NCBI RefSeq assembly: GCF_024138165.1
Contig: NZ_CP100000.1
Coordinates: 3,720,001 to 3,784,000, forward strand
Length of the DNA: 64,000 nt
Direction of reading: 5' to 3'
From: Halorussus vallis
GTDB taxonomy: Archaea; Halobacteriota; Halobacteria; Halobacteriales; Haladaptataceae
Shown here: piece after piece, positions 21,633-31,152 of the stretch
Position numbering within the stretch: the stretch's first letter is position 1
How the letters are laid out: each line of letters begins with the position of its first letter
Made by a program: the position numbers and the translations under genes
The notes under the pieces: model-generated
What the model saw: only the letters and a program-made list of their open reading frames with translations
Databases searched by the model: none
Told to the model about the DNA's origin: nothing

Positions 21633-22082
21633 ATGAGCGCCGATGGCCCCGACCGCGCCGACCCGGCGGACGTCTCCGACGACCACCCGGTCCTGTTGTT
21701 CGACGGCGTCTGTAACCTCTGCAACGGGGCGATTCAGTTCGTCGTCGACGCCGACCCGGATGCCGTCTTCCGGTTCGCGCCGCTCCAGTCGCCGGTCGGC
21801 CGCGACCTCCTCGCCAGTTGCGGCCTCCCGACCGACGAGATGGACACCGTGGTCCTGGTCGAGGACGGCGAGTGCTACACGAAGTCGGCGGCCGCGCTCC
21901 GGGTCGCCCGGCGACTCGGCGTCCCCTACTCGCTCCTGTGGCCGTTTCGGTTCGTCCCGCGGCCGATTCGGGACGCCGTCTACGACGTTGTCGCCGCGAA
22001 CCGCTATCGGTGGTTCGGCCGGCGCGAGGGGTGCATGGTGCCCTCGCCCGACGTCGAATCGCGGTTCCTCGACCGGAACTAG
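21633..22082 (+). CDS. Thiol-disulfide oxidoreductase DCC family protein (DUF393)
   Basis: A 149-residue protein. VLLFDGVCNLCNGAIQFVVD (about residues 20-39) contains the DGxCxxC signature of the DCC family; here the pair is CNLC. FRFAPLQSPVGRDLL follows, and the central LVEDGECYTKSAAALRVARR and Arg/Trp-rich LWPFRFVPRPIRDAVYDVVA are also family features. DCC proteins have a thioredoxin-like fold and are thought to exchange thiols and disulfides, but substrates are unknown. The ATG at 21633 starts an acidic N-terminus typical of the group. Confidence 0.9.
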   Translation: MSADGPDRADPADVSDDHPVLLFDGVCNLCNGAIQFVVDADPDAVFRFAPLQSPVGRDLLASCGLPTDEMDTVVLVEDGECYTKSAAALRVARRLGVPYSLLWPFRFVPRPIRDAVYDVVAANRYRWFGRREGCMVPSPDVESRFLDRN

Positions 22083-22198
22083 GGGCGAGTGTCCCGCGGC
22101 CCTGGGTCCGTCCCACGCCCGGCCCGAAGAGTCGAGCGCCGAGACGCGGGCGTAAACCTCGTACCGCTTGCCCCCGTACGTCCGGCGAGGCTAATACG

Positions 22199-23086
22199 GT
22201 GGGGGACGACGCTATCTCGAAATCGGCGGAAGGGACCGGGGGCGACGAACGGGTGCGCGACGCCGCGATTCGCCTCGACGGCGTGAGCGTGGAGTACGAC
22301 GGCGTGCGCGCCCTCGCCGACGCGGAGCTCCGCGTCGGCGAGGGCGAGTTCGTCACCGTCATCGGGCCGTCGGGGTGCGGCAAGACGACCATGCTCCGGA
22401 CCGTCGGCGGGTTGCAGGAGCCGACCGCGGGGTCGGTCCGCGTCGCCGGCGACCCGCCAGAACGGGCCAAACAGGCCGGCGACGTGGGATTCGTCTTCCA
22501 GCGCCACGCGCTCCTGCCGTGGAAGTCGGCGCTGGGTAACGTCACCTTCCTCCGGAAGATGGCCGGCGAGTCGCCCGACCCCGAGGGGGCCAGAGAACTG
22601 CTCTCGACCGTCGGCCTCGGAGGCTTCGAGGACGCCCGGCCCGCCGAACTCTCCGGCGGGATGAAACAGCGCGTCGCCATCGCGCGAGCGCTCCACCTGG
22701 GGGCCTCGGTGCTACTGATGGACGAACCGTTCGGCGAACTCGACGAACTCACCCGCGAGGAGATGGGCGTCGAGGTCCGGCGGGTGTGGCGCGAGGAGGG
22801 AAAGACCGTCCTCTTCGTCACCCACAGCGTCCCGGAGGCGGTGTTCCTGGCCGACCGATGCGTCGTGATGAGCGGCGACCCCGGCCGCATCGAGGGCGTC
22901 TTCGACGTCGACCTCCCCCGCCCGCGCGACGAGTCGGTGTACGGCACCGCGGCGTTCCAGGAGCAGGTCGCCCGCGTCCGGACCGCGCTCCACGCCGGGG
23001 CCGGGTTCGGCGCGTCGAACTCGGGCACGGAGAGCGCGGGGAACGTCTCACCGGAGCGAGGTGACATCGACGGTGACCGTCGCTGA
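22199..23086 (+). CDS. ABC transporter ATP-binding protein (NitT/TauT/ThiZ type)
   Basis: A 295-residue ATPase from a GTG start. Walker A is GPSGCGKTTM (about residue 55), the Q-loop FVFQRHALLPWKSALGNV (about 98), the signature LSGGMKQRVAIARAL (about 145), Walker B SVLLMDEPFGELDE, and the switch His is in VLFVTHSVPEA. The LLPWKSALGNV block is typical of nitrate/sulfonate/taurine and thiamine-precursor importers. It energises import with the permease that starts inside its 3' end (26-nt overlap). The related second permease and binding protein lie next on the opposite strand. The substrate is probably a small organic compound. Confidence 0.9.
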   Translation: MGDDAISKSAEGTGGDERVRDAAIRLDGVSVEYDGVRALADAELRVGEGEFVTVIGPSGCGKTTMLRTVGGLQEPTAGSVRVAGDPPERAKQAGDVGFVFQRHALLPWKSALGNVTFLRKMAGESPDPEGARELLSTVGLGGFEDARPAELSGGMKQRVAIARALHLGASVLLMDEPFGELDELTREEMGVEVRRVWREEGKTVLFVTHSVPEAVFLADRCVVMSGDPGRIEGVFDVDLPRPRDESVYGTAAFQEQVARVRTALHAGAGFGASNSGTESAGNVSPERGDIDGDRR

Positions 23087-23903
23087 CTCGCCCGCAGACG
23101 GAACGCCCGCCGACGAAGCACACGCTAACGGGTCGTCCGGTCCCGAATCGCTCGCCGACCGGACGCCCGCGGCGAGTGTCGTCCTCCCGACGGCCGCGCT
23201 CGCGGTCGGCGTCTTCGCGTGGTGGGCGGTGGTCACCCTCTTCGGCGTCCCCGCATACCTCCTGCCCTCGCCGGTCGCCGTGGCGGCCAGACTCCTCGAC
23301 CGACCCGACCTCTACGTCCGGAACGGGTGGGTGACTCTCCAGACGGTGCTGTCGGGCGGCGCGCTCGGCGCGCTCGCCGGACTCCTCGCCGCGGTCGGCG
23401 TCGTCCAGTCGTCGCTGCTCCGGCGCGCGCTGTACCCCTACCTCGTCACCGCGCGCGTGCTCCCGAAGGTCGCGCTCGCGCCGGTCCTGCTGGTGTTCGT
23501 GGGGACGGGTACCGGGACCGCCCAGACGTTCGTCGCGCTGGTGGCGTTCTTCCCGGTGTTCGTCGACGCCGTCGCGGGGTTGGACGAGACGCCCGACCGC
23601 TACCTAGACCTGCTCGAATCGGTCGACGCCGGCCCGGTCCGGACGTTCCTGTTCGTCCGACTCCCGGCCGCGCTCCCCGCCGTGTTCGCCGGCCTCAAGC
23701 AGTCGGCCGCGCTGGCGGTCGTCGGCGCCGTCGTCGCCGAGTGGATTCTCACCGACGAGGGACTCGGTTTCCTCGTCCTGGTCGGCGCGGAGAACGTCCA
23801 GACGGCGGCCGTGCTCGCGGCGGTCGCGGTACTTTTCATAGAGGGATATGCGGTTTATGGGCTGGTGGCGCTGGCCCAGAAGCGAGTGGACTGGCGGTCG
23901 TGA
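23061..23903 (+). CDS. ABC transporter permease (BPD type)
   Basis: A 280-residue membrane protein beginning at GTG (VTSTVTVADSPADG), although another in-frame GTG is 12 nt later. About six membrane segments are visible. The cytoplasmic EAA-like loop is ESVDAGPVRTFLFVRLPAAL followed by PAVFAGLKQSAALAVVGAVV (about 195-235), which contacts the ATPase. The N-terminal 35 residues are a low-complexity acidic stretch. It overlaps the ATPase gene by 26 nt and is coupled with it. Its 3' end faces the second permease tail-to-tail, with 37 nt between the stops. Confidence 0.88.
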   Translation: MTSTVTVADSPADGTPADEAHANGSSGPESLADRTPAASVVLPTAALAVGVFAWWAVVTLFGVPAYLLPSPVAVAARLLDRPDLYVRNGWVTLQTVLSGGALGALAGLLAAVGVVQSSLLRRALYPYLVTARVLPKVALAPVLLVFVGTGTGTAQTFVALVAFFPVFVDAVAGLDETPDRYLDLLESVDAGPVRTFLFVRLPAALPAVFAGLKQSAALAVVGAVVAEWILTDEGLGFLVLVGAENVQTAAVLAAVAVLFIEGYAVYGLVALAQKRVDWRS

Positions 23904-23940
23904 CGAACGCCCGAATTGCCGAAAAAACCGGTTCCGCGGG

Positions 23941-24744
23941 CTACCTCCGACGAATCCGCCGCTCGACGAACGCGGGCACGAGGTAGAACGCCACGCCGAG
24001 CGCCGCGAGCGCGAACAGCGCGGCGATCATCCGCGGCGTCTGGAGTCGCGTCGAGGCGTGGAACACCCGGTAGCCGAGTCCCGCGGTGAGCGTCAGGAAC
24101 TCCGCGACCACCGCCCCGACGACGCTCGCGGCGGCCGCGACCTTCAGCCCCGCGAACGTCTCGGGCGCGGCGGCCGGAAGCCGAACCCGCACCAGTCGCG
24201 CGCCGGTCGGCGCGCCGACCGACCGCGCGAGGTCGAGGTACTCCCGCGGAGTCGCCCGGAGGCCGTCGTAGGCCGCGACCGTCACCGGGAAGACCGCGAG
24301 CGTGGCCGCGAGCAGCGCCCGCGCGCCGAGGCCGTGGCCGAACCACCGGAAGAGGAGCGGCGCGACGGCGACCAGCGGGACGATTCGGAGCGCGACCACG
24401 TAGGGCCGGGCGACCGCCGCGGCCGTCTCGGAGGCGACCATCGCGAGCGCGAGCGCGACGCCGACGGCGCCCCCGGCGATCAGTCCGAGTCCCGCAGTCG
24501 CGGCCGTGATTCCGGCCGCACCTAGGAGCGTCTGCCACTCGGCGGCGAGTGCGACCGCCACGTCCCGGGGGCCGGGAAAGACGACGGGCGGCACGCCCGA
24601 CGCCTGGATGGCCCACCACCACCCGACGACCCCGAGCGCGGCGACCGCCAGCGGCGGTCCCGCGCTCGCGGCGAGTTCGCGTACGCGCGAACCCGCCCGC
24701 GTCCGCCGCCGATGTCCGTGGTTCGCTCCGCGGTCGGTCGCCAT
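23941..24744 (-). CDS. ABC transporter permease (BPD type), second
   Basis: A 267-residue permease on the opposite strand from the first one. The EAA-like loop is ARSVGAPTGARLVRVRLPAA followed by PETFAGLKVAAAASVVGAVV, and ALRIVPLVAVAPLLFRWFG lies upstream. It is clearly homologous to the permease at 23061. Starting just after a short His/Arg-rich N-terminus, it has about six membrane helices. Its ATG begins 2 nt after the stop of the substrate-binding protein gene, with which it forms an operon. The two permeases could form a heterodimer served by the single ATPase, which is inference. Confidence 0.88.
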   Translation of the reverse strand: MATDRGANHGHRRRTRAGSRVRELAASAGPPLAVAALGVVGWWWAIQASGVPPVVFPGPRDVAVALAAEWQTLLGAAGITAATAGLGLIAGGAVGVALALAMVASETAAAVARPYVVALRIVPLVAVAPLLFRWFGHGLGARALLAATLAVFPVTVAAYDGLRATPREYLDLARSVGAPTGARLVRVRLPAAAPETFAGLKVAAAASVVGAVVAEFLTLTAGLGYRVFHASTRLQTPRMIAALFALAALGVAFYLVPAFVERRIRRR

Positions 24745-24746
24745 CG

Positions 24747-25859
24747 CTATCCGTTGGAGGTCGTCGTGGTGTTTCCGGTCGCGGTGGTCGTCCCGCCGGT
24801 CGTCGTCGTTCCGGACCGCCCGACGCGCACGAGCGAGGCGTACTCCCCGACTGCTCGGGCGTCGGTCGGGAGGTGGTCGTTGGTCCACGCCGCCGCCGGG
24901 TCGGTCTTCCCGCCGAGCAGGCCGCCGTCGCGGAGCGCCCGGTACATCGTCCGCCAGGGCTTCGACTCGCTCCACCCCCAGCCGTGCTCCCGGACCGCGT
25001 TCGAGAGGACGTACTGGCGGGCCATCTGCTCCCACTTCGCGCGCTGTACCTCGCGCGTCTCGGCGAGCGAGGGTTCGGCCTTCACCAGGATGTCGGTGGC
25101 TTTCCCGGGGTTGTTCGTCGCCCACGCCGCGCCGCGGGCGGTCGCCCGCAGGAAACTCCGGACGGTCCCGGCGTTCTGCTTCGCGTAGGACTCCTCGGTC
25201 GCGACGACGTGACCGTAGGAGGGTATCGCCTCGGCGACCGAGACGGACGAAACCCGGTTACCCTTCTGGCGGGCGACCACCGCGTCGCCGAAGACGCCGC
25301 CCGCGGCGTCTATCTTCCCGCCCAGTAGCTGCTGGACCGTGTCGTAGCCCGTGTCGACCAGTTCGACCTGCGAGAGGACGCCCTTCTCCTTCAGCAGGAG
25401 CCTCGTCAGGAGCTTTACCATCCCCGGCCCGGTGCCGACCGTCTTGCCCGTTAGCTGGTCGACGCTCGTGAGTTTCCCGCCGAACGTCTCGCGCGTGGTG
25501 AACACCACGACCGGACTCCGCTGCATCATCACCCCGACCGAACGGGGCGAGAGGCCGCGGCTCCGGACGTTGAGCACCTGGTCGGCGCTGGTGACGGCGA
25601 ACGGGACGTTGCCCAGGCCGACCTGCTTGGCCGAGAAGTCCGAGCCCTGCCCGGCTTTTATCTCGCTCACCGGCGCCCTGGCTTGCTGGTAGTACCCCCT
25701 CGCCTTGGCCACGTAGTACGGGACGTGAAGCCCGCTCGGCTTCCAGTTCAACAGCAGGCTGACGCCGTCCGACTGGCCGGCCGCACCGCCGACCGCGCCC
25801 GCGAATCCGACCGCCGAAGCACCCGTCGCTCGAAGGAACTGTCGTCGTGTCTCCCCCAT
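24747..25859 (-). CDS. ABC transporter substrate-binding protein (NMT1/THI5-like)
   Basis: A 370-residue binding protein. The Tat signal is TRRQFLRATGASAVGFAGAV. The mature part starts SDGVSLLLNWKPSGLHVPYY then VAKARGYYQQ, the hallmark of the NMT1/THI5 class that binds HMP (thiamine precursor), riboflavin, nitrate or sulfonates. VTSADQVLNVRSRG and TVGTGPGMVKLLTRLLL are further features. The C-terminal tail is a Thr/Gly-rich linker ending TTTTSNG, with no visible membrane anchor. It carries its ligand to the neighbouring permease. The substrate class is inferred; HMP is possible but unproven. Confidence 0.88.
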   Translation of the reverse strand: MGETRRQFLRATGASAVGFAGAVGGAAGQSDGVSLLLNWKPSGLHVPYYVAKARGYYQQARAPVSEIKAGQGSDFSAKQVGLGNVPFAVTSADQVLNVRSRGLSPRSVGVMMQRSPVVVFTTRETFGGKLTSVDQLTGKTVGTGPGMVKLLTRLLLKEKGVLSQVELVDTGYDTVQQLLGGKIDAAGGVFGDAVVARQKGNRVSSVSVAEAIPSYGHVVATEESYAKQNAGTVRSFLRATARGAAWATNNPGKATDILVKAEPSLAETREVQRAKWEQMARQYVLSNAVREHGWGWSESKPWRTMYRALRDGGLLGGKTDPAAAWTNDHLPTDARAVGEYASLVRVGRSGTTTTGGTTTATGNTTTTSNG

Positions 25860-26021: not shown

Positions 26022-27032
26022 TCAGCCCTCGGTCTGGTTGCCGTCGTCCGACGTGGTCGTGCCCTCGTCGGTCGCGCCGCTGCGAGCCTCCGCTTTTACG
26101 GTTTCGGTCGTGCCGGTCGTCTGTCCGCCCGCAGTGGTTCGGGTTTCGCCGGTCGCGGTGGTCCGCTGGGCCGCGGTCGTGGTTCCGGCCGCGTCGGCCG
26201 TCGTCTCGGCGGTCCCGTTCTGACCGGCCTGGCCGAGCGAGACGCCCGACAACCGGAGTTGGGTCAGCGTGTAGTTCTCGACCACCGCGGTTTCGGCGGC
26301 CAGCGCGGGCTGACCGGTCGACTCGGCCGCCCCGCCGGTCGCGCCGCCGGCCTGCGAGAGGGAGACGTTCTCGGTCGCGCCGACGTAGACCGTCGCGTTC
26401 TCGACCGCGAGGCCGTCGACGGTCTGGTTCTGGAGGACCGCCTCGTCGATGACGAGCCGAGTCTCGATGCGGACGCGTCCGCTCTCCTCGATGAGCGCCT
26501 TCGCGAGCGTGTCGTTCCGGATGGTGACGTTCTCGACGGTCAGGTCGGTCACGAACCCGGTCGACTCGATGCGCTGGACCGCCACGTCGTTGTAGGTTCG
26601 GTTAGTGGCGTTCTCGCCCGACGCGTTCACCAACGTCAGGTGTCCGAACTGCGCGTTGCGGACCGTGACGTTACGCAGCGTGAGTTGCTCGACGGTCACG
26701 TTCCGGGCTTCTACGTGAGTCCCGGAGCCCTGGGTCGCGTTGCCGGCCTGCTGGGTCGCGTTCGTCCCCGGGGCCTGGGTTTCGTTCGCGCCCTGGGCCT
26801 GCTGGGTGTCGTCTGTCGCCTGCGTCTGCTGGGCCGCGGTGGTCGTGCCCTCGTCGGTCGCGCCGCTGCGGGCCTCGGCCTTCGTGGTTTCGGTCTGCGT
26901 GGTCGTCTCCTGCAGGGCCGAGTCGGCGGACCCCGCTCCCGGTTGGGCAGGGCCGACGTCGCCGATGAGTCCGGCCGCCCCGCCGGTGAGCGCGAGCAGC
27001 AGTGCTACCAGTATCGCCAGTGTGTCGTTCAT
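26022..27032 (-). CDS. Secreted NVT-repeat surface protein
   Basis: A 336-residue protein with a Sec-like signal (MNDTLAILVALLLALTGGAA). Residues about 40-105 are Thr/Gln/Ala-rich low complexity. The central part (about 106-270) has repeated strands of the type NVTVEQLTLRNVTVRNAQFG and NVTIRNDTL, suggesting a parallel beta-helix-like solenoid. A second Thr-rich stretch ends the protein. I count 16 N-glycosylation sequons (NxS/T), an exceptional density for 336 residues, which fits a heavily glycosylated cell-surface protein. KAEARSGATDEGTTT occurs at both ends, encoded by an exact 32-bp duplication. A TATA-like TTTATC lies about 27 nt before the ATG. It is divergent from a related protein at 27302. 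Confidence 0.75.
   Translation of the reverse strand: MNDTLAILVALLLALTGGAAGLIGDVGPAQPGAGSADSALQETTTQTETTKAEARSGATDEGTTTAAQQTQATDDTQQAQGANETQAPGTNATQQAGNATQGSGTHVEARNVTVEQLTLRNVTVRNAQFGHLTLVNASGENATNRTYNDVAVQRIESTGFVTDLTVENVTIRNDTLAKALIEESGRVRIETRLVIDEAVLQNQTVDGLAVENATVYVGATENVSLSQAGGATGGAAESTGQPALAAETAVVENYTLTQLRLSGVSLGQAGQNGTAETTADAAGTTTAAQRTTATGETRTTAGGQTTGTTETVKAEARSGATDEGTTTSDDGNQTEG
26053..26084. repeat. 32-bp direct duplication (copy 1; copy 2 at 26839-26870)
   Basis: An exact 32-bp sequence starting GTGGTCGTGCCCTCGTCGGT and ending CGCCGCTGCG occurs at both positions, 786 bp (262 codons) apart and in the same frame inside the NVT-repeat gene. It encodes the same acidic Thr/Gly-rich peptide at both ends of the protein. 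Confidence 0.95.
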
Positions 27033-27301: not shown

Positions 27302-28009
27302 ATGTTCGACACAGACCATGCGACCCTGATAGTCGGAGTAGTAGCGCTCGCGGTCGTCGCGCCGCTCGCGGCCGGCGCCGGCGTTCCGGCCGCGCAGAAC
27401 GACCGGCCGACTCAGTCGGCCGGTCTACAGTCCGCCTCCACCGCCGACGGCCCGGCCCAGACCGGGCAGGGCGTCGGCGTGGGCAGGCTCTCGGCCGAGA
27501 CGGTGATGCTCCGCAACGTCACGGCGACCGACGTGGTAGTACGGGATCTAACCGTCCGCCGGATGGGCCAGCACCGGAACGTGACGTTCGCGAACGTCTC
27601 GCTCGACCGCGTTGTCGTCCAGCGGGCGAACCTCTCGGACGTGCAAATCCGTGATGCGACGATACGAAGCCGGGAACTGCTCTCGGCCCTCGGCATTCCC
27701 TTCGGCGGGTTCAACCTGAGCAATCGTTCGGTCCGGCGCGTCACCATCCGGAACCGGACTGTCGACGGCGTGGTCGTCCGGAGCCTGACCGTTCGGTCGG
27801 CCCCGGGACTGAACCTCTCGAACACGGAGAGCGTCGCGGGCGACGCCGCGGTGAACGTTTCGTCGCCGGCGCTCACGGCAGGCAACGTGACCGTGAGCCA
27901 AGTTCGGTCGTTCCAGGTTTCGGTCGCCGGGCAACCACCGGCGAACGCGACGGCCGAGGCGGCCAGATTGACGGGACTGAATGCCGAGACGGCCGCGGAA
28001 TCGGCGTAG
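27302..28009 (+). CDS. Secreted NVT-repeat protein, second copy of the family
   Basis: A 235-residue protein with an N-terminal hydrophobic signal (LIVGVVALAVVAPLAAGAGV). Residues about 58-175 contain the same strand repeats as its divergent neighbour: VMLRNVTATDVVVRDLTVRR, NVTFANVSLDRVVVQRANLS, NRSVRRVTIRNRTVDGVVVR. I count about 11 N-glycosylation sequons. It lacks the long Thr/Gln-rich segments of the neighbour. Repeat periodicity suggests a beta-helix-type solenoid (inference). The ATG at 27302 follows the TATA-like element described above. Function is unknown; both proteins are probably cell-surface partners. Confidence 0.72.
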   Translation: MFDTDHATLIVGVVALAVVAPLAAGAGVPAAQNDRPTQSAGLQSASTADGPAQTGQGVGVGRLSAETVMLRNVTATDVVVRDLTVRRMGQHRNVTFANVSLDRVVVQRANLSDVQIRDATIRSRELLSALGIPFGGFNLSNRSVRRVTIRNRTVDGVVVRSLTVRSAPGLNLSNTESVAGDAAVNVSSPALTAGNVTVSQVRSFQVSVAGQPPANATAEAARLTGLNAETAAESA

Positions 28010-28105: not shown

Positions 28106-30202
28106 TTACTCCTCGAAGCCGCCCGACGACCAGACCGTTATCTCGTCGTCGGCCGCGACCGCGACGTACTGGATCTGCTCGGTCGGGTCCTCCCACACCA
28201 CCGGCGCGGGGGTGATGCGGTCGGCGTCGGTCTGGGCGCTCCAGATGCGCTCGCCGGTCTTGGCGTCGAGCGCGTAGAGGTGGCCGCCCGAGGAGGCGAC
28301 GAACAGGACGCCGCCGGCGGTCGCGGTCGTGCCGCCAGGCCAGATGCGCCAGTGGGACCACTCGGGGCTGACGTCCGGGAGTTCGGTCCGCCACGCGAGG
28401 TCGCCGCTGGCGGGGTCGACCGCCTGAACGTACGCGTTGTGGGTGGTGTCTTCGGAGGCGAGTCGCGAACCGCCCTCCGCGAGCGTGATGTCGCCCTCCG
28501 TCACGTACTCCCAGTCGGGGTCGTAGGAGACCCGCTGGGCCGCCTCGACGGCGGCGATGTACCGCATCCCGGTTTCGGGGTCGTACGCGCACGGCGGCCA
28601 CTCGGTCGCGCCGATGGTGCCCGGCCAGGCGGTCGCGGCGTTCTTCTCGCCCCGAGGCGGGAGTGCGAGAAAGTGCTCGGCCCACTCGTGGTCCTGCTTG
28701 GTCCAGGGCGCGGTGCGTTCGAGCAGTCGGCCGGTTTCGGCGTCGTAGACGTAGGTCCAGCCGGCCTTCTGGTCGGTCGAGACCGCGCGCCGGGTTTCGC
28801 CGTCGACCTCCAGGTCGAAGACGGTCGGGGTGGCGTGGCTGTCGTAGTCCCACAGTTCGTGGGGAATCTGCTGGCTGGCCCAGTTGATCTTGCCCGAGTC
28901 GAGGTCCACGGCGACGATGGAGTTCGAGTGGTGGTTCGGCCCGGGCCGGACGAGTCCGTTCATCATCGGACACGGGTTGCCGACCGCGTAGAACACCGTG
29001 TTCGTCTGGGGATCGACCGAGGGACTCATCCACGGGGCGGCGCTGGCGAACCGCCAGCTCTCGTCGACCCAGGCGTCCTCCGGGGCCATGTTGACGGTCC
29101 ACTGGACGTCGCCGGACTCGGCGTCGACCGAGGAGGCGACGCACCAGCCGCCGAAGTCGCCGCTCATGCCGACGAGGATTCGGCCGTCGTAGGCGATGGG
29201 CGCCTGGCTGATGGACATCCGCTTGGGGTACTCCATCTCGCGCTGCTGGCGCTCCGTCAGCATGTTCGTCTCCCACTCCTTCTCGCCGGTGTACCGGTTG
29301 AGCGCGACCAGGTGCGTGTCGGTCGTCGCGAAGTACACCTTGTCCTTCCACACCGCCACGCCGCGGTTGCGGCCGGTCTGTCCGACCGCGTCCTCCGGTA
29401 GCGCGTACTTGAACTGCCAGTACTTCTTCCCGTTCCGGGCGTTGGCCGCGACGACCGAGAGGTTGCTCGTGGTGTAGTACATCACCGGCGGGTCGGTCGG
29501 GACGATGATCGGGTTCGTCTCGATGCCCGCGCTGTCGGTCGGGATGGAGTACTTCTGGGTGAGGCTGGCGACGTTGTCGGAGTCGAGCCTGTCGACCGGC
29601 GTGTAGCCGCGCTGGCCCAGTCCCTTGTCGTAGGTGAGCCACGAGTCGCGGCGCTCGCCGTCCTCCCGGAGCATGTTCGTCGTCACGGAGAGCTTCGGCA
29701 TGTCTTCCTGTGCGGCCCCCGGACCCGGCGGCTGTTGGATGGGTTGCTGCTGTTGCTGGCCGTCACCGCCGCCGCGGACCTGCATGTCGCCGACCATCGA
29801 GTTCGGGTGGATGGTGCAGATGTACTGGGACATCTCCTCGGTCGCCGTGAACACCAGCGTGACCGTCGCGCCCTGCGAGGAGTACACCTCGGTCCCCATC
29901 AGCCGGTTACCGTCGGCGTCCTGGATGACGAAGTTGTGCGGGGCGCCGTCGATGTTCTCCCAGCGGACCCGGTAGCGGTTGCCCGCCTCCAGGTTCAGCG
30001 TGGGGTTCACCTGCCCCTCGATTCGCTTGGGTTGGCGACCGTGCCAGCCGGAGATGCCGCCGCCGAACACGAACTCCGTGTCGTAGTCCTGCATGAAGTT
30101 GACGTGCTCGTCCTCGTCGCGGGCCTCCGGCCCGGTGTCGATGTAGTGCGGTCGCTCCTCCGGTTCGATCTCCTCGGTCTCGGGGTCGATATCGGCGGAC
30201 AT
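28106..30202 (-). CDS. Cupredoxin-fused PQQ-type quinoprotein
   Basis: A 698-residue two-domain protein. Residues about 35-145 form a cupredoxin with probable type-1 copper ligands His89 (GAPHNFVI), Cys129, His132 (ICTIHPNSM) and Met136. A Gln/Pro-rich linker (about 148-168) leads to an eight-bladed quinoprotein propeller of the PQQ alcohol/glucose dehydrogenase type. HHSNSIVAVDLDSGKINW and IPHELWDYDSHATP (about 447-458) match the PQQ dehydrogenase pattern, where an Asp of WDYD is the expected catalytic base. It would oxidise an alcohol or sugar and pass electrons to copper. No signal peptide is visible at the N-terminus (MSADIDPETEEIEPEE). It forms an operon with the Tat-signal protein 2 nt upstream. 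Confidence 0.85.
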   Translation of the reverse strand: MSADIDPETEEIEPEERPHYIDTGPEARDEDEHVNFMQDYDTEFVFGGGISGWHGRQPKRIEGQVNPTLNLEAGNRYRVRWENIDGAPHNFVIQDADGNRLMGTEVYSSQGATVTLVFTATEEMSQYICTIHPNSMVGDMQVRGGGDGQQQQQPIQQPPGPGAAQEDMPKLSVTTNMLREDGERRDSWLTYDKGLGQRGYTPVDRLDSDNVASLTQKYSIPTDSAGIETNPIIVPTDPPVMYYTTSNLSVVAANARNGKKYWQFKYALPEDAVGQTGRNRGVAVWKDKVYFATTDTHLVALNRYTGEKEWETNMLTERQQREMEYPKRMSISQAPIAYDGRILVGMSGDFGGWCVASSVDAESGDVQWTVNMAPEDAWVDESWRFASAAPWMSPSVDPQTNTVFYAVGNPCPMMNGLVRPGPNHHSNSIVAVDLDSGKINWASQQIPHELWDYDSHATPTVFDLEVDGETRRAVSTDQKAGWTYVYDAETGRLLERTAPWTKQDHEWAEHFLALPPRGEKNAATAWPGTIGATEWPPCAYDPETGMRYIAAVEAAQRVSYDPDWEYVTEGDITLAEGGSRLASEDTTHNAYVQAVDPASGDLAWRTELPDVSPEWSHWRIWPGGTTATAGGVLFVASSGGHLYALDAKTGERIWSAQTDADRITPAPVVWEDPTEQIQYVAVAADDEITVWSSGGFEE

Positions 30203-30204
30203 CG

Positions 30205-31152
30205 TTAGTTAGGAATTTCCAGGTCGTTGTCGCGCTCGGCGCGGGCCTCCTCGTCGATCCAATATGCGTCCTCGGGCAGCAGGTTCTGGGCGATGGCCTG
30301 CAGTGCGAACCCGCTGGATAGTAGTCCGGCAAGTTCGTCGTCCGTGGTGTCGGCGCCGCGGGCATCGCCGTCCGCGACGCGGCGGGCGCCGTCGACCATC
30401 AGGTCGAACCCGGCCGCCATGGCGCGGGCGTCCCACGTTGCGTCGGCCAGGATGTCGTCGGTCAGCAGCACCGCGTTCGTCCAGATGTGTTCGTCGAGGT
30501 CTTCGAGCCACAGCAGGACGCCGCCGGCCGCGGCCTTGGTCATCGGCGGGACGTACTTGGCGAACTCCATCTGCTCGCGGGGCAGTTGGTCGGTCGACAC
30601 CCAGTGGCGGTCGCCGATGCGTTCGCGGTGGTTGACCGTGGTCGCCAGCAGGTCGACCAGTTCCCGCTGGTCGAAGCCGAGTTCTGACAGCGACCCCGCC
30701 AGCCCTTCGCTCACGACGAACCGCCGGACGCTGTCCTCGATGTACCCCGGCGTGAACTCCGGCAGTCGCTCGGTCGTGCTCTCGAAGAAGCCGACCTCGC
30801 CCAGGTGGTCGTAGACGGGGCGGGCCGCCTCCGCGACCGCCGCGAACTCCCCGCGGGGCCCCTCGTTCATTCCGGGGAGGCCGCGCTCGGGGACCGCGGT
30901 CAGTCCCGACGCCGCCTCGGCGACCGCCGCCTGACGGTCGGCGAGCAGGCTAGCGTCGAGTTCGCCCGCGAGGTCCGACCGAATCGCCTCGCCGACGCTC
31001 GCCAGTCGCTCGGACCCGCCCGTAGAGAGTTCCGACCGCACGTCGTCGAGGGTCGCCCCGCCGGCGGCGACGGCACCCCCGACGCCGAGTGCCTTCAGAA
31101 ACTCCCGGCGCTGTTCGTCAGTTACACGTTCGTCTCCGTAGCCGTGAGCCAT
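30205..31152 (-). CDS. Tat-signal protein, partner of the quinoprotein
   Basis: A 315-residue protein. QRREFLKALGVGGAVAAGGA near the N-terminus is a twin-arginine signal (RRxFLK). The mature part is mostly helical and Asp/Glu/Ala-rich, with no cysteine. It contains conserved-looking TTVNHRERIGDRHWVSTDQL and LEDLDEHIWTNAVLLTDD. I do not recognise a family. It ends 2 nt before the quinoprotein start, so the two are probably coexpressed. Because the quinoprotein shows no export signal of its own, this protein might carry it out through the Tat pathway or serve as its membrane partner (inference). Confidence 0.65.
   Translation of the reverse strand: MAHGYGDERVTDEQRREFLKALGVGGAVAAGGATLDDVRSELSTGGSERLASVGEAIRSDLAGELDASLLADRQAAVAEAASGLTAVPERGLPGMNEGPRGEFAAVAEAARPVYDHLGEVGFFESTTERLPEFTPGYIEDSVRRFVVSEGLAGSLSELGFDQRELVDLLATTVNHRERIGDRHWVSTDQLPREQMEFAKYVPPMTKAAAGGVLLWLEDLDEHIWTNAVLLTDDILADATWDARAMAAGFDLMVDGARRVADGDARGADTTDDELAGLLSSGFALQAIAQNLLPEDAYWIDEEARAERDNDLEIPN

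Follow-up and report, generated by a model that had tools for sequence, protein, structure and literature searches.

A helical Tat-motif protein as putative export partner of a cupredoxin-quinoprotein fusion in Halorussus vallis and other haloarchaea

As far as we know, characterised quinoprotein dehydrogenases carry a signal of their own and pass their electrons to cytochromes or membrane quinones; in type II quinohemoprotein alcohol dehydrogenases, a cytochrome c is built in at the C-terminus. The PQQ alcohol dehydrogenases of the ExaA/PedH/XoxF type (6zcv, 1flg, 6dam; TIGR03075) are eight-bladed propellers with a conserved Arg, Trp, Asn and W-D-x-D set. Among FAD dehydrogenases, a small helical protein with a Tat signal, such as the gamma subunit of BcGDH (Gluconate_2-dh3 family, PF13618), is paired with a catalytic subunit that needs its help for secretion (PMC6719666). 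A search for papers on haloarchaeal PQQ enzymes, on cupredoxin-quinoprotein fusions, or on the gene pair described below found none in a literature collection of restricted reach.

The pair lies in the window, by which we mean the whole stretch of 64,000 nucleotides of the Halorussus vallis genome that was analysed. On the reverse strand, P1 (28106..30202) is a cupredoxin-quinoprotein fusion of 698 residues without a signal peptide, matching PF01011 (E=1e-57) and TIGR03075 (E=8.6e-87), and directly upstream on the same strand lies P2 (30205..31152), a predicted all-helical partner of 315 residues with a Tat motif and without a recognised domain. The P2 stop and the P1 ATG are 2 nt apart, and the pair adjoins gyrB. 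A first-pass annotation, made from the DNA letters alone, had described this arrangement, and its coordinates, lengths, strand, and 2-nt gap were confirmed.

In profile searches, the PF01011 and TIGR03075 matches cover residues 172-683 of P1, the region over which it is homologous to the ExaA/PedH/XoxF-type enzymes; among solved structures, its relatives come from the quinoprotein ethanol dehydrogenases and the quinohemoprotein alcohol dehydrogenases. P1 shares with the ExaA/PedH/XoxF type the R, W, N, and W-D-x-D residues and the eight-bladed propeller (residues 172-694; 28121..29689, reverse strand), in which eight propeller motifs were found. The WDYD that had been noted at residues 451-454 (28841..28852, reverse strand) is indeed there; by homology, one of its Asp residues is the catalytic base and the other is the additional one characteristic of lanthanide-type enzymes. 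Unlike the ExaA/PedH/XoxF enzymes, P1 has no signal of its own, is accompanied by the gene of a helical candidate escort, and deviates at the Cys pair and the Glu ligand; none of the PQQ synthesis genes passes its cut-off here, and the TIGR03075 score of 291.9 bits is below the curated cut-off of 480, which none of the haloarchaeal matches in 145 genomes passed.

The type-1 copper domain occupies approximately residues 43-143 of P1 (29774..30076, reverse strand), and its ligands H89, C129, H132, and M136 were found exactly where the first-pass annotation had placed them. Copper-bind (PF00127) matches residues 78-142 with E=0.0014 and 19.4 bits against a cut-off of 21.2, a cut-off that is passed by the separate cupredoxins of five related loci (L026, L035, L067, L070, and L096). 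All eight fused P1 orthologues keep the H...C-x2-H-x3-M pattern, as do nearly all of the separate relatives; the shorter cupredoxin of L095 matches it in part. Neither a CxxCH motif nor a cytochrome c domain was found in P1 by sequence and domain search. The fusion of an acceptor domain to the propeller is shared with the type II quinohemoproteins (1kb0, 1kv9, 1yiq), but in P1 this is a type-1 copper domain at the N-terminus in place of their C-terminal cytochrome. A second type of copper-quinoprotein fusion, a large cupredoxin joined to a glucose/sorbosone dehydrogenase (GSDH), was seen in Natrialba/Natrinema, next to the pair but on the other strand (L067:9056-11332 and L070:8894-10879); these fusions resemble P1 in joining a cupredoxin to a quinoprotein-type dehydrogenase and differ in dehydrogenase family (PF07995) and in having their own predicted Tat signal.

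A misplaced P1 start with a signal upstream of it was considered and rejected. A stop codon 5 nt upstream of the ATG closes the frame, and the N-terminus, M(S/P/A/T)ADIDPE..EERPHYIDTGPEAR, is nearly unchanged in all orthologues, directly after the P2 stop; the start is therefore not misplaced, there is no space for a hidden signal, and the earlier statement that P1 lacks a signal peptide stands. In P2, the RREFL of the Tat motif falls at residues 15-19 (31096..31110, reverse strand), is part of RREFLK, and is followed by the hydrophobic ALGVGGAVAAGGATL. TIGR01409 matches DEQRREFLKALGVGG... above its cut-off (20.0 against 16.7) and Pfam TAT_signal matches the P2 N-terminus below its own; profile searches gave no other domain or family, which agrees with the description of P2 in the first-pass annotation. 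No relative of P2 was found in the PDB by sequence, and comparison of its predicted structure gave no fold match there (best E 0.64). The AlphaFold model is all-helical (pLDDT 88, pTM 0.89), and in it the Tat motif region forms a confident helix (pLDDT ~90), which is unusual for a cleaved signal. P2 resembles the Tat hitchhikers of FAD dehydrogenases as a small helical Tat-motif protein paired with a catalytic chain, and the layout of such a pair is seen here, with a Tat motif on P2, none on P1, and adjacent genes. Assignment of P2 to Gluconate_2-dh3 (PF13618) itself was rejected, as the two show no sequence homology (hhalign probability 0.9%) and no fold match; P2 also differs in length (315 residues against 168) and in having a quinoprotein as its presumed cargo.

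Across 145 haloarchaeal genomes, sampled evenly and independently, 26 matches to the P2 profile fell in 16 genomes, and TIGR03075 gave exactly 26 long propellers of at least 229 bits in the same 16 genomes, each beside one P2 gene when matched by coordinates; the best TIGR03075-type propeller without a P2 in these 145 genomes scored 65 bits. Since the adjacency is 26 out of 26 in an independent, class-wide sample, the pairing is not a matter of chance. Relatives of P2 occur in many haloarchaeal genera, with the propeller gene directly downstream wherever the flanks suffice, except at L045, where P2 and propeller appear to have been lost together. A decayed P2 fragment (L045:5786-6352) is present there at the matching gyrB-side place, with no propeller match. 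The Halorussus vallis genome holds three P2-P1 pairs and no further full-length propeller of the PQQ-dehydrogenase type. P2 and P1 distances correlate with r=0.93 (permuted maximum, 0.17), a mirror-tree correlation that is partly trivial, the genes being linked. Overall, the partnership is close to obligate. The third pair of the genome (L027:7693-10358) is immediately preceded by RNA polymerase and nusA-like genes and closely followed by the ribosomal protein genes rpsL and rpsG, and six related pairs (L041, L043, L044, L081, L092, and L094) also come straight after RNA polymerase and nusA-like genes; the place is odd and presumably highly expressed.

Among 60 non-redundant P2-P1 pairs, no propeller has a signal-like N-terminus; a Tat, lipoprotein, or Sec-like signal is present in 15 of the 18 other (BamB-type) propellers examined in the Halorussus vallis genome. 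RR-x-[FL]-L is aligned in P2 of 32 of these 60 divergent pairs at ~37% identity, and the longer form of the motif, RR-x-[FL]-L-x-x-[LI]-G, likewise counted in 32 of the 60, shows only two changes of state on the tree. In relatives, the cupredoxin has a gene to itself, usually includes a predicted Tat signal and in some cases (L026, L035, L037, and L095) has APGFG or SPGFG followed by a hydrophobic C-terminal tail; only in the Halorussus clade of the window is it fused to the propeller chain, and the fused form lacks a signal. A blue-copper domain would be expected to act outside the cell, so that the P1 chain needs another carrier, and within the locus P2 is the evident candidate; with the cupredoxin fused to a signal-less propeller, the simplest interpretation is export through P2. 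The one-to-one neighbourhood likewise suggests that the helical partner carries the folded enzyme out of the cell. Co-export of the two proteins, as the first-pass annotation had proposed, appears well supported on comparative grounds, and better so than sequence alone could show its reader; what speaks against it is a clade of 27 loci in which the Tat motif is missing, together with the confident helix predicted for the motif region. A linked AlphaFold model of low quality, made by reading through the in-frame pair of L040 with 18 sequences, gave a pTM of 0.62.

We judge P2-P1 to be a putative Tat-escorted, cupredoxin-coupled quinoprotein, and we give a probability of roughly 0.6 to the reading in which P2, as escort, and P1, as catalytic chain, would form a single extracytoplasmic oxidoreductase with Tat export and a copper outlet. 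What we infer for P2-P1 binding, Tat export, cofactor identity, substrate, and electron path is the following. P1 would fold in the cytoplasm and then bind P2, whose signal would take the complex through the Tat translocase. Outside the cell, the propeller would oxidise what is probably an alcohol or a compound of the aldehyde type by means of a quinone cofactor, most likely PQQ acquired from the environment, with Ca2+ or a lanthanide ion holding it in place. The type-1 copper domain fused to the propeller would then accept the electrons, in the role that cytochrome c has in bacterial quinohemoproteins, and hand them on to membrane or halocyanin-type carriers.

The clade without the Tat motif, made up mostly of Natrialba, Natrinema, and Halorubrum relatives, keeps the P2-P1 pair at all 27 loci; L095 is the single further Tat-less locus outside it. 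Either the escort role has moved in this branch or the pair acts inside the cell. Intact pairs of this kind, together with an LG and a helix that are conserved in the motif region of P2 relatives with or without the RR, would suit a cytoplasmic P2-P1 throughout, with the RR as a surface feature of the first P2 helix, P2 as a structural subunit, and P1 active inside. A 2Fe-2S ferredoxin gene points the same way: it is present in the flanks fetched for 15 loci that have neither the Tat motif nor a cupredoxin (L036:4245-4706 and 14 others) and in those of no other locus; three cupredoxin-less, Tat-less pairs have no ferredoxin nearby. We nevertheless regard a cytoplasmic pair as unlikely, given that the hydrophobic stretch after RR-x-[FL]-L in P2 is as strong as in the other Tat signals of the genome, that P1 carries a fused blue-copper domain whose separate relatives usually have a predicted Tat signal, and that the ferredoxin, absent from loci with the motif, is linked to Tat loss through a few evolutionary events, with too few independent changes on the tree for testing. 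The ferredoxin may reflect plain synteny or a cytoplasmic electron acceptor, and we take its association with Tat-less pairs as a lead. Rather doubtful, too, is an archaeal system in which quinoproteins would receive their cofactor in the cytoplasm and be shipped folded by a dedicated escort, with a cytoplasmic, ferredoxin-coupled Tat-less branch; we know of no characterised PQQ enzyme from the cytoplasm. At 11 Tat-less loci (10 of the 27 in the clade, and L095), a separate cupredoxin is the sole bearer of a predicted Tat signal, which would be in keeping with P2 as a dedicated chaperone or electron-transfer subunit and with export of P1 by another route or another Tat protein. That reading strikes us as improbable, as the pair of the window clade has no other signal and no conserved cysteine in P2 points to electron transfer.

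Site roles in P1 were assigned by homology to aligned solved enzymes; R280, W391, N409, D452, D454, and K479 are kept, and the same Arg, Trp, Asn, both Asp, and Lys are present in all eight orthologues. In the window clade, the vicinal Cys pair is absent (GQT-GRNRG against CCxxNNRG in most other propellers), and the metal-ligand Glu is replaced, by D349 in P1; most other clades have the full lanthanide-type set of CC, GGE(Y/F)G, the N in GNP, W-D-x-D, and Lys. The cut-offs for PqqB and PqqC were passed in none of 58 genomes, and the cut-off for PqqE was missed in the Halorussus vallis genome, in searches in which general relatives of PqqB and PqqE score and no control genome passed. With the Cys pair lost, Glu changed to Asp, and no PqqB, PqqC, or PqqE over the cut-off, the use of PQQ by P1 is uncertain; PQQ, if used, is most likely scavenged. 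The enzymatic reading is weaker for the P1 of the window than for its paralogues, and the outward quinoprotein with a built-in copper outlet of the first-pass annotation seems plausible still, albeit with a non-canonical site and no PQQ synthesis gene over the cut-off. These same features would be expected if P1 were an "empty" quinoprotein, exported by P2, no longer binding PQQ, and serving the copper domain as scaffold or sensor; the second-best match of P1 is acido-empty-quinoprotein group A (TIGR04528), a propeller relative. We consider this possible, though well short of probable. P1 scores 257.7 against that family's cut-off of 650 and retains most of the site residues, without exception among the eight orthologues, and it differs from the clearly degraded propeller site of a Halolamina locus (L057), in which the Asn is lost as well; moreover, bacteria that do not make PQQ use PQQ from outside.

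The neighbouring genes offer hints of function. A possible functional partner in the window is an NMT1/SsuA-type substrate-binding protein with a Tat-like N-terminus (24747..25859, reverse strand), directly followed by the gene of an ABC permease (23941..24744, reverse strand; named from hydrophobic sequence and position); an ABC ATPase of uncertain start (21872-23086) and a second permease (23061-23903), both on the forward strand, make up the rest of the possible partner transporter, so that the NMT1/SsuA-type ABC transporter of window 21872-25859 consists of two convergent gene pairs. An NMT1-type binding protein is found near 33 of 66 P2-P1 loci, in several genera, against an expectation of ~2% (8 such genes in 5.05 Mb, an estimate that ignores shared ancestry). 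Five loci (L026, L040, L042, L090, and L091) have aldehyde ferredoxin oxidoreductase genes nearby, in keeping with a substrate of the alcohol or aldehyde type; both kinds of neighbour are hints. Also beside the pair, two secreted-looking proteins (window 26022-27032 and 27302-28009) abound in NVTV/LTV repeats and N-glycosylation-type sites, with weak pentapeptide or NosD-like matches only; the one at 27302-28009 is conserved in the Halorussus clade.

P2-P1 opens a clear test of whether a quinoprotein crosses the membrane folded and of where its PQQ comes from. For the haloarchaeal P2 family, which is found in many genera and was previously without a role, there is now a partner and a likely role, and an archaeal lineage seems to place the export of its quinoprotein on a helical partner family of its own, with blue copper as the electron outlet.
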